From positions 496,001-560,000 of the forward strand of contig NZ_CP024847.1 of assembly GCF_002892535.1 (NCBI RefSeq): 64,000 nucleotides of DNA, in the 5' to 3' direction. Source of the stretch: Aquella oligotrophica. Lineage in GTDB: Bacteria > Pseudomonadota > Gammaproteobacteria > Burkholderiales > UBA11063. Below the pieces are notes generated by a model. It was not told the DNA's origin, ran no database searches, and saw nothing but the letters and a program-made list of their open reading frames with translations. Shown here in pieces: positions 6,841 through 39,058 of the stretch (within the stretch, counting starts at the first letter, position 1; each line of letters starts with the position of its first letter). A program made the translations under genes and the position numbers.

Positions 6841-8541
6841 ATGTTTCAAAAAGATGCACAAGCGATTCGGGTGCTAGCTGGTGCAAATGTGTTCTTCAAA
6901 GATGTGGGGGCGATCATGGAGATCGTTACCCGCGATGAGCAGAAGGCTGCATTTGTTACTGCATACGAAACTGAGTTGCGTAAAGTTCTTGATGCTTTGG
7001 GTTGGGACGATGTCCCAATCTATAAGCGTGTGTACAGTAAAGGATTTATCTTTGCAATCCCTACTGAATATGATTATACTTATGCTGGATGTAAAATATT
7101 AGGCATAACGTTGGATATGGTGACAGCCGTATTTGATGGTCTTGAAATACCTGATTTTAATGAAGAAGTTAGTTATTTAGAGTATGTCTTATCTCGCGAA
7201 CGCTATATTACTGTGCGGAATATCTATCAAGAGGCAAGAGAACGTTCTTTAAATGTCTTTATTGACGAGGGAACTATCAGTATTGGTAGCGGCAAGGGCG
7301 CGTTTATTGCTAAGCTTGATGATATTGGTTTTGGTGATGTGCCGTGGGATAAAATCTATGAAGTGCCTAGTGTCATGGTAACTGGTACTAATGGCAAAAC
7401 CACTACTGTCCGTTTAACCAGTTTTATAAATAAGCATGCTGGTAAAGTTGTTGGTTATTGTTCAACTGACTGGGTGATGGTAGATGGTCAAATCGTTAGT
7501 GAGGGGGATCTTTCTGGCCCACGAGGTAACCAGACTGTTCTTACTGATCCAAGGGTAGAAGTTGCGGTGCTTGAGGTTGCCCGTGGGGGACTCATTAAGC
7601 GTGGGATTGTTACCTCAAGCGTTAATGGTGCTGCAGTAATGAATGTTGGCGCTGATCATCTTGGTGTGAATGGAATTGATACGGTCGAAGATTTAGCTGA
7701 AGCTAAGTTTTTGGTTCATGATGGTGTAAAACCAGGTGGACATAGTATTATTAATTTGGATGATTCCCTGACCCATCAGTTTATGCTGAAGATAGATAAT
7801 CTTAAAGCTTATGTTAGCCAAAAACTACCCGAAGCTGAGATTCTTTCTTATCTAAAAGATGGCGATTATGCGTGTTATGTTGATAATGATGCTTTTTATG
7901 TGCATCGTGATGGACAAAAACATTTTATTGCTAATATCAATGATGTTGATTTAACCTACAAAGGTTTGGCAAAGCATAATATTGAAAATGTATTAGTTGC
8001 GATTTGTCTAAGTCTTGAGCTTGGGCGTACCTATCAGGAAATTCATGATGGTTTAGTGGCTTTTGTTAATGATGAAAATAATCAAGGGCGGTTTAATTTC
8101 TTTGAAATTAATAATAGCCGTTTTATTGTTGATTATGGTCATAATCATGCTGCGGTGGCAACTATTTTCAAGTTCGCAAGACAGATTGCTGGCCCTGAAA
8201 CAAAGTTGACCGCATTGCTTGGCTTCTCTGGTGATCGTAAATTTATGATTAAAGACATTGCAAAGAGTGTAATTGAGCATAAAATTGACAATATCATCAT
8301 CAAACAGTTCCATAATTATGCTCGTGGAGCAGAACGTGGTGAACTTGCAGAGATGCTTAAAAAAAGTTTGATCAAGAATGGTTTTGATGAGAATAACATT
8401 ATTGCTACAGTTGATACTGAGATTGAAGCTGCAGAAATTGCACTCGCTAAAAGTAATGAAGATCAAATTTTTATTATGTTGTGTCAGGAAGATATCCCCG
8501 GAGTTATTGCCAAATTGAAGAGTGTTAATGTTGCATCTTAG
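6841..8541 (+). CDS. Short cyanophycin synthetase-like protein (CphA'), Mur-ligase domain without ATP-grasp
   Basis: 566 aa. I place the start at ATG 6841, preceded by AAGGA at 6829-6833, rather than the longer frame opening at 6802 inside cphA. About 180 N-terminal residues of uncertain function are followed by a Mur-ligase domain with intact P-loop TGTNGKTTT at about 181-189. Compared with CphA, AVLEVARGGLIKRG, NVGADHLGV, HNIENVLVAI and FIVDYGHNHAA are conserved. No ATP-grasp domain is visible, so it cannot carry both ligations alone. A second cphA-like gene beside cphA is known in betaproteobacteria. Its role is unproven: a helper subunit, a dipeptide-using ligase like cyanobacterial CphA2, or a regulator are all possible. 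Confidence 0.85.
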   Translation: MFQKDAQAIRVLAGANVFFKDVGAIMEIVTRDEQKAAFVTAYETELRKVLDALGWDDVPIYKRVYSKGFIFAIPTEYDYTYAGCKILGITLDMVTAVFDGLEIPDFNEEVSYLEYVLSRERYITVRNIYQEARERSLNVFIDEGTISIGSGKGAFIAKLDDIGFGDVPWDKIYEVPSVMVTGTNGKTTTVRLTSFINKHAGKVVGYCSTDWVMVDGQIVSEGDLSGPRGNQTVLTDPRVEVAVLEVARGGLIKRGIVTSSVNGAAVMNVGADHLGVNGIDTVEDLAEAKFLVHDGVKPGGHSIINLDDSLTHQFMLKIDNLKAYVSQKLPEAEILSYLKDGDYACYVDNDAFYVHRDGQKHFIANINDVDLTYKGLAKHNIENVLVAICLSLELGRTYQEIHDGLVAFVNDENNQGRFNFFEINNSRFIVDYGHNHAAVATIFKFARQIAGPETKLTALLGFSGDRKFMIKDIAKSVIEHKIDNIIIKQFHNYARGAERGELAEMLKKSLIKNGFDENNIIATVDTEIEAAEIALAKSNEDQIFIMLCQEDIPGVIAKLKSVNVAS

Positions 8542-8603
8542 ATGCATAAATGTAAGAACTTTCTGGTAAAATTTGGTAGAATAATGGATTAAGTATCTTT
8601 TTT

Positions 8604-8635
8604 ATGGCTGTACAAAGTTTTTTTGCTACAGCCAT
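8604..8635. promoter_or_regulatory. Perfect inverted repeat upstream of cphB, candidate operator
   Basis: ATGGCTGTA (8604-8612) and TACAGCCAT (8627-8635) form a perfect 9-bp inverted repeat with 14 nt between. No T-run follows on the plus strand, so it is a poor terminator. It ends 5 bp before a TATAAT box and covers the expected -35 zone, a position suited to a repressor or activator. Confidence 0.5.
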
Positions 8636-8640
8636 TGAGT

Positions 8641-8646
8641 TATAAT
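8641..8646 (+). promoter_or_regulatory. Candidate -10 box for cphB-isoaspartyl dipeptidase operon
   Basis: Exact TATAAT 48 bp before the cphB ATG. The -35 zone is only poly-T (8618-8623), consistent with dependence on an activator or on the flanking inverted repeat. Confidence 0.5.
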
Positions 8647-8694
8647 GGCTTATTAGTTATTAACTATTTTATGTTCATGAGCTAAAGGAAATAA

Positions 8695-9519
8695 ATGAGT
8701 ATGGAACATAAGCCGCAGCGTGGCTTTATTATACCTATTGGTGGGCGCGAAGAAAAAGAAGTTAATCCTCGGGTGTTAGAAAGGTTTGTTGAATTAAGTG
8801 GCGGCAAAGATGCAGTTATTTCGATAATTCCTACAGCATCAAACCTGGAAGATACAGGTGATCGCTATGTTGAAATTTTTGCCCGTTTAGGGGTTACTAA
8901 GATATATAACAATAATATTGTTAATCGTCAGGATGCAAATAACGAGATATTCGTAAAGCAGTTGACTGAATCTACCGGAATTTTTATGACCGGTGGTAAC
9001 CAGCTACTGTTATCTACGGTACTGGGTGGAACTACTGTTGCACGAATGATTCGTAAGCGTAATGCTGAAGGAGTTCCTGTTGCTGGAACATCTGCTGGGG
9101 CAGCATTCATTCCAGAACATATGATTGCTTCAGGTGATTCTGGTTTGATTCCGCGCGTTGGTGGTGTTACGATTGCTCCAGGGCTAGGGCTAACCAATAA
9201 GGTGATGATTGACCAGCATTTTTCACAGCGTAACCGTTTGGGAAGATTGTTGACGGCATTATCATATAATCCTTACAAAACTGGGATTGGTGTTGATGAA
9301 GACACCGCTGCAATTATCGGTCCTGATGGCGATATTGAAGCAGTAGGTAGTGGAGCCTTAACAATCGTTGATATGTCAAAGGTCGAATATTCATCTGTTG
9401 CAAGTACTGCACCAGGGGATGCGATAAGTCTGGTTGGTGTTAAGATTCATACATTGCTGGACGGTGATCGTTATGATCCCAAAATGCACGAAGTTATTCA
9501 TAAAAAGCAAAGTGTATGA
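8695..9519 (+). CDS. cphB: Cyanophycinase
   Basis: 274 aa serine peptidase of family S51. It degrades cyanophycin to beta-Asp-Arg dipeptides in the cytoplasm. The nucleophile is S133 in the GTSAGA motif. FMTGGNQLLLSTVLGGT, DQHFSQRNRLGRL and GIGVDEDTAAII are also family-typical. The start at ATG 8695 has AAAGGAA at proper spacing; a second ATG two codons later is possible. The stop overlaps the dipeptidase start by four bases, so the two degradation steps are translationally coupled. Confidence 0.96.
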   Translation: MSMEHKPQRGFIIPIGGREEKEVNPRVLERFVELSGGKDAVISIIPTASNLEDTGDRYVEIFARLGVTKIYNNNIVNRQDANNEIFVKQLTESTGIFMTGGNQLLLSTVLGGTTVARMIRKRNAEGVPVAGTSAGAAFIPEHMIASGDSGLIPRVGGVTIAPGLGLTNKVMIDQHFSQRNRLGRLLTALSYNPYKTGIGVDEDTAAIIGPDGDIEAVGSGALTIVDMSKVEYSSVASTAPGDAISLVGVKIHTLLDGDRYDPKMHEVIHKKQSV

Positions 9520-36282: not shown

Positions 36283-36304
36283 TTCTACCTCCCCTTAGCT
36301 AAGA

Positions 36305-36333
36305 ATTATAGTTTACTAGTAAACTATTGTCAA
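36305..36333 (-). promoter_or_regulatory. Consensus promoter with palindromic operator for marR-DUF1398
   Basis: On the minus strand TTGACA (36333-36328), a 17-bp spacer and TATAAT (36310-36305), all matching consensus. The 20-bp segment 36308-36327 (ATAGTTTACT and its exact complement) is a perfect palindrome filling the spacer and touching the -10. A dimer bound there would block RNA polymerase. Confidence 0.85.
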
Positions 36334-36465
36334 GTAAATTATACTTTAGAGATAAAAGAATTGTGATATTATTAGGTTGAAATATTATGGTAAAATAGAA
36401 ATAATTTTTAGTTTGTTATTCTATGTAGAACCGTTTTGCAATAAATATTTATCCAGGTGATCGCT

Positions 36466-37752
36466 ATGTCAGAACTAAGAAATAATGAAGTTTCAAAAAT
36501 AATTACAGTACTTAAAAATAATGATAATCTAACTCTTAATATTAATGGAAAATGGGGTAGCGGTAAAACCTATGTATCTGATCTTGTAATGAGTAAATTA
36601 AATGGGTTACAGAGGATGGGGTTTTTAGCCTTAAAAGTTAATATTTCCGATTATGATTACTGTGCGGATCCATTGGTGCCTTTTATAATTACTATCCTTG
36701 ACTATGTAAATAATAGTGAATGTGAGTCCAATGGTGCTAGTGGGAATAATGCAAAGATTTTCTCTGCTGTAGCAATGCTACTTAATGTACTATCTTGGAC
36801 GTCTTTACTTATTGATCAGTCAGGTTTCCTAAAGCGAATTCTATCAACAGTAGAAGACTTTGTAATTGATGAAAAGACTGAGTCAAAGCATGGTAATGAT
36901 GGTAATGAGGATTTAATCAGTGCGCAATTATCTAATGTTCGAGTATATCAACAAGCTTTACAGGAACTGGAAAAAATAATTAATGCTCTAGCTGATAGAT
37001 ATGACAAAAAGAAATTAATTATTTTTATTGATGATTTTGATCGGGCAAATCCCAAGTTTTCATATAGAGTGATGAACATAGTTCACCAGTTAAAATTTAT
37101 TACAAACCTGCAGTTTTGCACGATTATGAATCGGCATCAATTTGAATCTCAGCTACAACACATTTATGGCAAGAATAGTGGTAATGATGAATATTATTTA
37201 ACAAAATATATTGATCTTGAAATTAATATTAAAACTCCAGTGAAAGATAATCCACGTGAGTTTTTACAGGAATTAGAGTTTGACAATGATGCTGAGAGTT
37301 TTTTATTTCTATCAGAATGGTTATCTTTCCTGACAGTAAGAAATGTGCAAAAATTTGCTAAATTTTATTTAACAAGGCTAAATCAAATTTTTAAAGGACA
37401 TGACTTTAAGATATTATTAGCACAGAATCACAATGCTGCATATTATCTTTTACTGTTAAATATTGTGATTGTAAGATATGATTTAGAGTTAAGATCTCTT
37501 TATTATGATTTATTAACTATATCTGAGATTGAAGTAATTAAAGAAAAATTACAGCACTTTAAAGGAGATATATCAAATCCATTAAACTATGATAATTATA
37601 AAGGGGCGAAAGAAATTTTTTCAGGTCTTATTGATATTGTAGGCGAAGTTTTTAATTTTATTATACGTAAAATAGATAAGAAAACTATAGAAAATATCGG
37701 AATTGAGCAGTTTCTTAATAAACTATATGAAGAGTACTTTAATCCTAGTTAG
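36466..37752 (+). CDS. KAP-type P-loop NTPase
   Basis: 428 aa from ATG 36466, chosen for the AGGTGA site just upstream; a GTG three codons earlier is less likely. Walker A GKWGSGKT lies at 28-35 and Walker B LIIFIDDFDRANP at 184-196, the latter close to the KAP signature FIDDLDRC.P. A hydrophobic patch near 98-115 (IFSAVAMLLNVLSWTSLLI) may be the membrane-associated insertion seen in KAP ATPases. The C-terminal half is helical and unrecognised. Some KAP NTPases act in phage exclusion or defence; here that is only suggested by the neighbouring recombinase gene. Confidence 0.78.
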   Translation: MSELRNNEVSKIITVLKNNDNLTLNINGKWGSGKTYVSDLVMSKLNGLQRMGFLALKVNISDYDYCADPLVPFIITILDYVNNSECESNGASGNNAKIFSAVAMLLNVLSWTSLLIDQSGFLKRILSTVEDFVIDEKTESKHGNDGNEDLISAQLSNVRVYQQALQELEKIINALADRYDKKKLIIFIDDFDRANPKFSYRVMNIVHQLKFITNLQFCTIMNRHQFESQLQHIYGKNSGNDEYYLTKYIDLEINIKTPVKDNPREFLQELEFDNDAESFLFLSEWLSFLTVRNVQKFAKFYLTRLNQIFKGHDFKILLAQNHNAAYYLLLLNIVIVRYDLELRSLYYDLLTISEIEVIKEKLQHFKGDISNPLNYDNYKGAKEIFSGLIDIVGEVFNFIIRKIDKKTIENIGIEQFLNKLYEEYFNPS

Positions 37753-37765
37753 TATCAACCTAAAT

Positions 37766-37999
37766 ATGGAGGCTTGACACCATTTTATTCGTACAAAAAT
37801 TGTAGAGGAACAATATATTTTACGTACTTTGGATAAATTATTAGATTTTTGTTTCGATGATGAGATATTATTGCTGTATAAAAAATTATGTCGCTATTAT
37901 TATCCGCTTAACCGAGATGCTATAGTTGATTACATACGATACTATTTTGAAATGTATGAGCCAGAAAAGCTTAGCCAACATTTGAATCAAACAAATTAA
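37766..37999 (+). pseudogene. Small ORF with an in-frame stop at codon 4
   Basis: Frame begins ATG GAG GCT TGA, then continues open for 73 codons with strongly protein-like sequence (FIRTKIVEEQYILRTLDKLL, then LLLYKKLCRYYYPLNRDAIV, ending LSQHLNQTN). If TGA were TGG or CGA a 77-aa helical protein would result. No alternative start with a good ribosome binding site is seen. It begins 13 bp after the KAP stop. Family unknown to me. Confidence 0.45.
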
Positions 38000-38206
38000 T
38001 GGGTTAGTCAGTCATGGCACTAACGCCCAAACCTTCAGGCAATATTAAAATTCGTAAGGTTAATTTAAGGCAGGCAAAAAAGAAGGCCCGAACATAATAT
38101 CCGGACCAATTGGGGAAGAAAATGTGGGACTTCTTATCAGAAGTTTCCCAGTAAGCGAGATTATAGATGTTTGGCGGATAAATGAAAATAGATGATTTTG
38201 AATATC

Positions 38207-38301: not shown

Positions 38302-38916
38302 TTATTTTTCGAGGGTATTTATCAGTTCAATAATCTGTTCTTTTTGGTTACCTAATTCTTCGATTTTGCTGCTAAACATGTTTATAATCAGCTTTAGTTC
38401 AGCCAAAAGTTCTTTCTTATCTGGAGTAAACTGGCTTTGACAAACTAGATGAATCACTGTTCCATGACGGTTACAAAATGCTTCAAACCATTCATAGCCA
38501 AATCTTACCAGTCGGTCTTTATGGGCAAGGAATAGCATCCGAATTTTTCCCTGTTCGATCTGTTCCATTAGCAGATTAAAGTTCTCTCTTTGATAATTAA
38601 GGCTGCTATTATGATCGATATACCATTCATCAATTGCCATATGCATTTTTTGTGCAAATTCGGTGATATGCTGCTTTTGCAGTTCAATGTCATTGTAATC
38701 AAGAGCACATGAACTTCTGCAATAGGCGACAGTTTTTGCCGATACCGAAGCATGAACGCCAATATATTCAAGATATTGTTGGTAAGTATAATAACGGCGG
38801 TTTGTTGTCGAGCGTTTGGCAGGCAGTTTTCCTTCGCGATCCCATCTTTGCAGCGTTAGTACTGATTTACCTATCATCTGCGCAAATTGTTTGGGTTTGA
38901 TGATTTCATTTTCCAT
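38302..38916 (-). CDS. tnpA: IS607-type serine recombinase (TnpA), without TnpB
   Basis: 204 aa from ATG 38916, chosen for AAGGAA eight bases upstream. A MerR-like helix-turn-helix (about 5-52, FAQMIGKSVLTLQRWDREGKL) precedes a serine resolvase domain: VAYCRSSCALDYNDIELQKQ with the nucleophile predicted at S69, then LFLAHKDRLVRFGYEWFEAF, the family hallmark. The C-terminal helix IINMFSSKIEELGNQ is usual. Length is normal, so it may be active. IS607 elements normally carry tnpB next to tnpA; none is visible here, so this is an orphan or part of a partial element. Confidence 0.88.
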   Translation of the reverse strand: MENEIIKPKQFAQMIGKSVLTLQRWDREGKLPAKRSTTNRRYYTYQQYLEYIGVHASVSAKTVAYCRSSCALDYNDIELQKQHITEFAQKMHMAIDEWYIDHNSSLNYQRENFNLLMEQIEQGKIRMLFLAHKDRLVRFGYEWFEAFCNRHGTVIHLVCQSQFTPDKKELLAELKLIINMFSSKIEELGNQKEQIIELINTLEK

Positions 38917-39058
38917 TTTAGTTTCCTTAAATGTATTCAATATGAATATATTTTATCACTCTTTGGTGCAATAGTTTGAAAACTTGTGTTTAGTCTATTT
39001 TATTTGAAATTTGGCTATGTTAGAATCACTTAATCAAAAATTTTTTAAGGAAAATAGT

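Follow-up and report, generated by a model that had tools for sequence, protein, structure and literature searches.

A divergent stand-alone KAP-family NTPase of Aquella oligotrophica related to a candidate defence family that recurs in type I restriction operons

Background

What a stand-alone KAP-family NTPase does in the chromosome of Aquella oligotrophica, and how its gene came to lie beside a recombinase gene and broken sequence, is the question raised by a stretch of 64,000 nucleotides (contig NZ_CP024847.1, positions 496,001 to 560,000), which was analysed as a whole and is called the window below. A sequence-only reading had described the protein as a KAP-type P-loop NTPase of 428 aa with a FIDDFDR Walker B motif, possible membrane contact, and an unrecognized C-terminal half that could be a new effector. 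PifA, which causes T7 exclusion, is a KAP NTPase with anti-phage activity.

The papers cited here were available in part, and statements taken from them refer to those parts. The KAP NTPase Tmn inhibits T2, P1, phiVi, and phiX by a mechanism described in the available text as unexplored (PMC11846954). QatA is a hepta- or octameric, DNA-binding KAP NTPase that is dispensable for defence against some phages (PMC13279940), and RdrA forms a heptamer with R377 as its sensor-2 arginine (PMC9994260). The candidate systems called PDCs were identified by guilt-by-embedding in known defence systems (PMC12988326).

Results and discussion

An intact gene for a KAP-family NTPase

The gene, supported by its open reading frame (ORF), Pfam and PADLOC matches, conservation, and a structural model, occupies 36466..37752 on the plus strand. 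Its frame is intact over 428 codons from the ATG at 36466 to the stop at 37752, with a ribosome-binding-like sequence (AGGTGA) 5 nt ahead of the ATG and no ORF of at least 70 aa listed on the opposite strand. Pfam KAP_NTPase (PF07693) matches residues 5-274 with 74 bits against a cut-off of 20 (E 1.6e-20), and this match together with Walker A (GKWGSGKT, residues 28-35) and Walker B (IIFIDDFDR, residues 185-193, including D189 and D190) confirms the family assignment made from the letters of the sequence. Other recognizable parts are a sensor-1-like N222, a sensor-2-like R292, and a helical lid and tail (residues 258-428); the sensor labels were given by analogy with RdrA as described in the available part of PMC9994260, and by that analogy R292 would take the place of R377.

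Contact with the membrane is weakly supported. A hydrophobic stretch of 19 aa at residues 98-116 (Kyte-Doolittle mean 1.96) is the only one between the two Walker motifs, and the AlphaFold2 model puts it within helix 92-115 of the NTPase domain. Tmn, also a KAP NTPase with anti-phage activity, has two transmembrane domains; the window protein shows this single marginal stretch. The genome of A. oligotrophica encodes a second, weakly KAP-like ATPase of 503 aa (L002:562-2073, C1:313528-316713; 26 bits), whose N-terminus is hydrophobic by reading.

Similarity to PDC-S20 and to known systems

PADLOC ranks four PDC-S20 models first for the protein (E 3.4e-25 to 1.5e-20, the best stretch covering residues 8-375 of 428), followed by PifA (6e-9) and then QatA (7.8e-9 and 4.1e-8). 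Assignment to PDC-S20 rests on this similarity by E value and on the single-gene locus, at which no partner gene was seen. The two also agree in length (PDC-S20 profiles have 446-464 positions) and in the N-terminal position of the KAP NTPase, but the window protein is far more divergent, its best E value comparing with 2.6e-185 for the best member of the alignment A2 (see below), which matches a different PDC-S20 model.

Known systems with comparable ATPases differ from the locus in other ways. The PifA model is aligned over just 27-257 of its 720 positions, which does not make the protein a PifA. QatA resembles it in being the KAP NTPase of a defence system, but the NCBIfam QatA model matches residues 6-207 with 35.3 bits against a cut-off of 600 (E 5e-9), no qatB, qatC, or qatD was recognized, and the immediate neighbours are MarR-like and DUF1398 genes, stubs, and tnpA, so that the locus does not qualify as QatABCD. 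RdrA of RADAR is the closest solved fold to the predicted model, with a like layout of Walker A, Walker B, and sensor-2 by analogy; however, the window protein has 428 residues against about 835 in RdrA (about 800 in the comparison made for RADAR membership), no RdrB was recognized beside the gene, and the immediate neighbours are not deaminases (the others were judged by reading), which limits the resemblance to the fold. The phage family phrog_8614, whose function is not known, matches residues 10-258 (E 1.2e-27) and thus aligns with the NTPase part only; unlike its members, the window gene is chromosomal, and no phage genes were recognized by reading among the neighbouring ORFs. Profile matches in four libraries extend at most to residue 375. 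A sequence search of the PDB gave no match at E 1, and BFVD gave one at E ≤ 0.001, a KAP protein from a megavirus sample.

Judged by its sequence, the window protein is a divergent new member of an already listed candidate-defence family and not a new kind. To our knowledge, no phage phenotype has been reported for the window gene or for any PDC-S20 protein, and no paper naming PDC-S20 was found in the limited library that we searched, which is not all literature.

Relatives and conserved positions

A whole-protein search gave 18 relatives, which with the query form the 19 sequences of alignment A1 (L047 and two pieces of L035 were left out). A pattern scan of genome contigs based on the single protein recovered no relative among 64 pattern matches; the later scan with A1 found relatives in at least 248 of 589 candidate stretches, and in IMG/VR viral contigs 233 of 460 candidate stretches encoded them. 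The best 80 of the 233 viral loci and the best 80 of the at least 248 genome-contig loci were taken forward. Of the ORFs recovered in total, most (157 of 180) have 400-499 aa, and 139 representatives were kept at 70% identity; ORF starts in the relatives' loci were assigned mechanically.

Alignment A2 was gathered with the patterns [DNE][GAS]xWG[EST]GKT and [IV]D[ED]LDRCxP for viral contigs and with [FIL][IV]D[ED]LDRCxP for genome contigs, and the invariance of these motifs in A2 is therefore an artefact of which A1 is free. All 78 A2 members match PDC-S20, PifA, and QatA models at E 1e-5. The window protein keeps Walker A, D189, D192, R193, Y244, and R292, the last of which is invariant in the relatives (77/77 in A2 and 18/18 in A1). 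It departs from the family at the nearly invariant positions E190, L191, C194, E204, K207, H208, and F210, a departure inflated in its LDRC.P part because A2 was gathered with that motif. In a tree of 128 of the 139 representatives (those with 380-560 aa), its branch is among the longest (2.34), with at most 23% identity to any row and no supported sister; other open-frame family members are likewise on long branches.

A predicted fold like that of RdrA

Structure prediction, which the sequence-only reading had proposed for residues 200-428, was applied to the whole protein. The AlphaFold2 model has a mean pLDDT of 75.6 and a pTM of 0.73, with block means of 45-72 after residue 300, and its last ~90 residues are low-confidence helices (block means 45-67). 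Foldseek against the PDB returned RdrA chains of RADAR as the 13 best matches and as 15 of the 16 at E ≤ 0.001, with modest TM-scores (0.35-0.53 by query length, rmsd 6 to 13). In VIA-align 2, RdrA reached Z 20.6 (rmsd 4.6, 351 aligned, model residues 1-405), and the next fold was ORC at Z 13.9. The model of an R-M-embedded relative, L215, has a mean pLDDT of 86.6 and again places RdrA first (Z 18.2, rmsd 4.8, 275 aligned); of its 447 residues, the superpositions on RdrA reach to between 253 and 348, that of the best chain to 324, and leave the last ~100 uncovered.

From these models we read residues 1 to ~340 as a probable KAP/AAA+-type ATPase with its lid, and what lies beyond as a helical tail. 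The supposedly unrecognized half of the protein is accordingly, up to ~340, read as the end of the ATPase and the lid, and its last ~90 residues are not firmly assigned. The suggestion that residues 200-428 hold a new effector attached to a KAP sensor would find room in the low confidence of the last ~90 residues, in the library matches that stop by residue 375, and in the stretch of L215 missed by the superposition. We nevertheless regard it as very improbable and have given it up as the leading idea: residues 200-340 look like the remaining half of the ATPase together with its lid, the lid carries the invariant R292, the RdrA superposition of the query model runs to 405, and after residue 295 no polar position is conserved in at least half of the 77 (A2) or 54 (A6) relatives, only Leu/Ile positions reaching 50% in either, a pattern unlike that of a catalytic domain and one that speaks against a new effector enzyme. 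The sequence itself gives no pointer to a separate catalytic effector domain.

Relatives between hsdS and hsdR

The commonest neighbour cluster of the family consists of genes resembling those of type I restriction-modification (R-M), defined as one BLAST-linked component (single linkage, E 1e-6). Such genes lie at most six ORFs away in 24 of the 139 representatives and are immediate, same-strand neighbours in 19; by source, they accompany 23 of 74 representatives from genome contigs, 1 of 20 from whole-genome searches, and 0 of 45 from viral contigs. Among the 24 loci, R-M domains were checked with Pfam in L215, L042, L202, and L245 and in one neighbour each of L206, L208, L171, and L224. The order hsdM-hsdS-KAP-hsdR is found by Pfam domains in Shewanella sp. 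SR44-3 (L215:5284-12586), Alteromonas (L245:1940-9292), and Pedobacter (L202:5288-11838), and also at L042:6865-14254, where hsdS and hsdR were assigned by Pfam and hsdM by similarity. Gene ends nearly touch or overlap in all four; in L215, the KAP gene spans 7956-9299, between the end of hsdS at 7951 and the start of hsdR at 9296. Other recurrent neighbours, named by reading, are phage-tail-like genes (13 loci) and integrases (10 loci).

The HsdS domain occurs in 14 of 126 immediate neighbours and, among the 105 distant genes, in one at most (Fisher p 0.002), the latter bound being taken from a Pfam list that shows 25 of 118 families, including all with at least two members. For HSDR_N alone, the difference (6 of 126 versus at most 1 of 105, p 0.13) is not significant. 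Immediate neighbours were ORFs of at least ~100 aa beside the 74 genome-contig representatives, of which 126 of 140 were scanned and 14 left out (12 of them from seven loci), and the distant controls were the fifth ORF out, all 105 scanned. These controls are not free of defence genes: at E 1e-10, 186 PADLOC families have one or more hits among the 105, and MTase_I models have up to three. On the tree, the R-M label changes 17 times over 128 rows. Between R-M and viral rows there are 11 changes, eight of them forced by supported branches, compared with a shuffled mean of 19.4, so that the label clusters on the tree and yet has several origins.

The R-M neighbourhood and the PDC-S20 label do not count as separate lines of evidence, because PDCs were picked by embedding according to the available part of PMC12988326, and R-M embedding is probably how PDC-S20 came to be listed. 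Our limited library, again not all literature, contained no paper that treats a KAP family together with hsdS and hsdR.

Flanks of the gene: probable remains of a defence island and an apparently resident recombinase

To the left, an intergenic region (36283..36465) separates the KAP gene from a divergent marR-like gene, beside which lies a DUF1398 gene. Upstream of the marR-like gene, the window has a perfect TTGACA-17-TATAAT promoter-like site (36305-36333, minus strand) that overlaps the palindrome TAGTTTACTAGTAAACTA; by reading, the palindrome could be the operator of that gene.

On the right, the broken ORF of the sequence-only reading exists as broken sequence, made up of two stubs and not one ORF. 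The first (37778..37999, plus strand) has 73 codons plus stop and resembles the C-terminal portion of an ORF of 116 aa from a genome of the same genus (G018, L084:695-1045; DNA match at 37812-37903, 73%), an ORF in which Pfam finds no family. The second is a 5' stub of rloB (38004..38073, plus strand, 20 codons from the ATG at 38014) with 84% DNA identity to the start of an intact rloB in G014 (L083), the product of which matches Pfam RloB at E 4.7e-33. That intact gene belongs to a defence-like cluster (L083:236-4506) with a sub-threshold SIR2_2 protein, an AAA_21 ATPase, and a RhuM/Fic protein. Reports place RloB in AbiLii and in operons of type I R-M (PMC10440598), and rloA/rloB within an R-M region (PMC2928727), as far as the available text goes. 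The G014 cluster is located upstream of an exonuclease-III-like gene, and in G007 (L085) a similar gene is preceded by R-M-like genes and another AAA_21 ATPase (the R-M and exonuclease genes were named by reading); the two clusters are perhaps a genus-wide defence hotspot.

A breakpoint follows directly at 38074..38076, as shown by comparison with the sister genome G019, which matches the window with 95% identity from 38076 onwards to the right and is unrelated to it on the left. The neighbouring recombinase (38302..38940, minus strand) is an IS607-type TnpA (MerR plus serine recombinase) with 134 bits against a cut-off of 110, but no tnpB-sized ORF lies beside it, so that it does not qualify as an IS607 element. 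TnpA and wrbA occur together in G019 to the right of 38076 (97% and 95% aa identity, respectively), and TnpA also adjoins wrbA in G022 (66% aa) and, split into two ORFs, in G014. With TnpA and wrbA on the conserved side of the breakpoint, the recombinase looks resident and outside the acquired KAP segment, which is the variable part. Three further genomes of the genus also have a tnpB-less TnpA next to wrbA (L077:12646-13284, L079:9007-9648, and L080:8270-8956), and this wrbA-linked TnpA looks like a resident, possibly domesticated recombinase. The recombinase had been taken for a mobile-element gene next to the KAP gene; it is an IS607-type TnpA but apparently not part of the same acquisition, and as mobiliser of the KAP gene it was rejected as the leading idea, since TnpA-wrbA is kept in G019 while everything to the left of 38076 differs. 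TnpA may once have acted at the KAP site. In G022 the MarR-DUF1398 pair is present (67-68% aa) with PDDEXK_4 nuclease and integrase genes on the KAP-equivalent side, an arrangement consistent with a variable site. The window contains no tRNA.

The gene itself is the lowest in GC of the 40 window genes tested (29.0%, mean 37.9%, z -3.2). A search of 22 other genomes of the genus gave no match at E 0.001; 10 of these genomes reach a completeness of at least 90% with contamination not above 5%. Matches were found in 14 of 399 genomes of the order sample (13 of 398 others) and 13 of 369 of the class sample (12 of 368 others), the own genome being included in both first counts and one genome with a match being common to both samples; tblastn of phages and plasmids gave 3 and 14 records, all below 27% identity and covering between half and two thirds of the protein. 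The KAP gene, patchy in its distribution, lies in a low-GC, foreign-looking patch and was most likely acquired horizontally. Together with the PDC-S20 matches, the occurrence of homologues in viral contigs and type I R-M operons supports the earlier association of the family with defence; a stub of a defence-associated gene, rloB, is adjacent.

As the island appears to be decaying, the KAP gene may be a passenger, a remnant that has kept its open frame but lost its function while a defence island is deleted piecemeal. The two truncated stubs directly downstream, the breakpoint at 38076, the departures from nearly invariant positions, and the long branch would fit such a remnant, which we nonetheless consider unlikely given 428 open codons, the preservation of both Walker motifs and R292, the ribosome-binding-like sequence ahead of the start, and long branches also in other open-frame members. 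Less probable still is an ORC/TnsC-like DNA-binding AAA+ protein serving replication, partition, or transposition of a mobile element and not defence: the folds ranked next include ORC/Cdc6 and TnsC (Z about 12 to 14), many relatives are in viral contigs, and QatA binds DNA (PMC13279940, available part), but RdrA scores clearly above these folds, type I R-M operons repeatedly contain family members, and the neighbours examined on the KAP side of the breakpoint include no recognized transposase, relaxase, or replication gene.

A working model

The explanation that we favour, and hold to be rather probable, is that the KAP gene is a horizontally acquired, stand-alone candidate-defence ATPase of PDC-S20 type, situated in the remains of a defence island and acting as a ring-forming infection sensor or switch. 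By analogy with its fold relatives RdrA and QatA, the protein would form a ring of about seven or eight subunits, with ATP bound at the subunit interfaces through K34, D189/D190, N222, and R292 and with the helical lid and tail making contacts to subunits or a target. Such a ring may sense or engage some material of the phage, most probably its nucleic acid or one of its complexes, and an ATP-driven rearrangement could then lead to a replication block or cell arrest. The gene does stand alone, as had been read: among the neighbours examined there is no R-M operon and no intact defence partner, and since no partner was recognized, any activity would be its own or exerted on resident machinery.

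In relatives, the ATPase may be a back-up to type I restriction or be gated by it, as its repeated position between hsdS and hsdR suggests. Extended to the whole family, this leads to a more doubtful proposal, which we put forward tentatively, that the KAP ATPases of PDC-S20 form an RdrA-like ring linked to restriction, with genes that lie between hsdS and hsdR or are phage-borne alone, and that this ring would provide a second line when a phage evades restriction, the window protein being a stand-alone, far-diverged branch.

Conclusions

The possible new effector gives way to a concrete and ordinary hypothesis, namely that the protein belongs to a candidate defence family and works as a ring ATPase. 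If the restriction-linked proposal is true, the ring and its gating by restriction would be new, the embedding itself probably being already the basis of the PDC-S20 listing. The recurrence of a KAP ATPase with RdrA as its closest predicted fold, in the order hsdM-hsdS-KAP-hsdR and in bacteria as far apart as Shewanella, Alteromonas, and Pedobacter, offers a testable restriction-linked defence module, and this link at the level of the family is more useful than the single gene.
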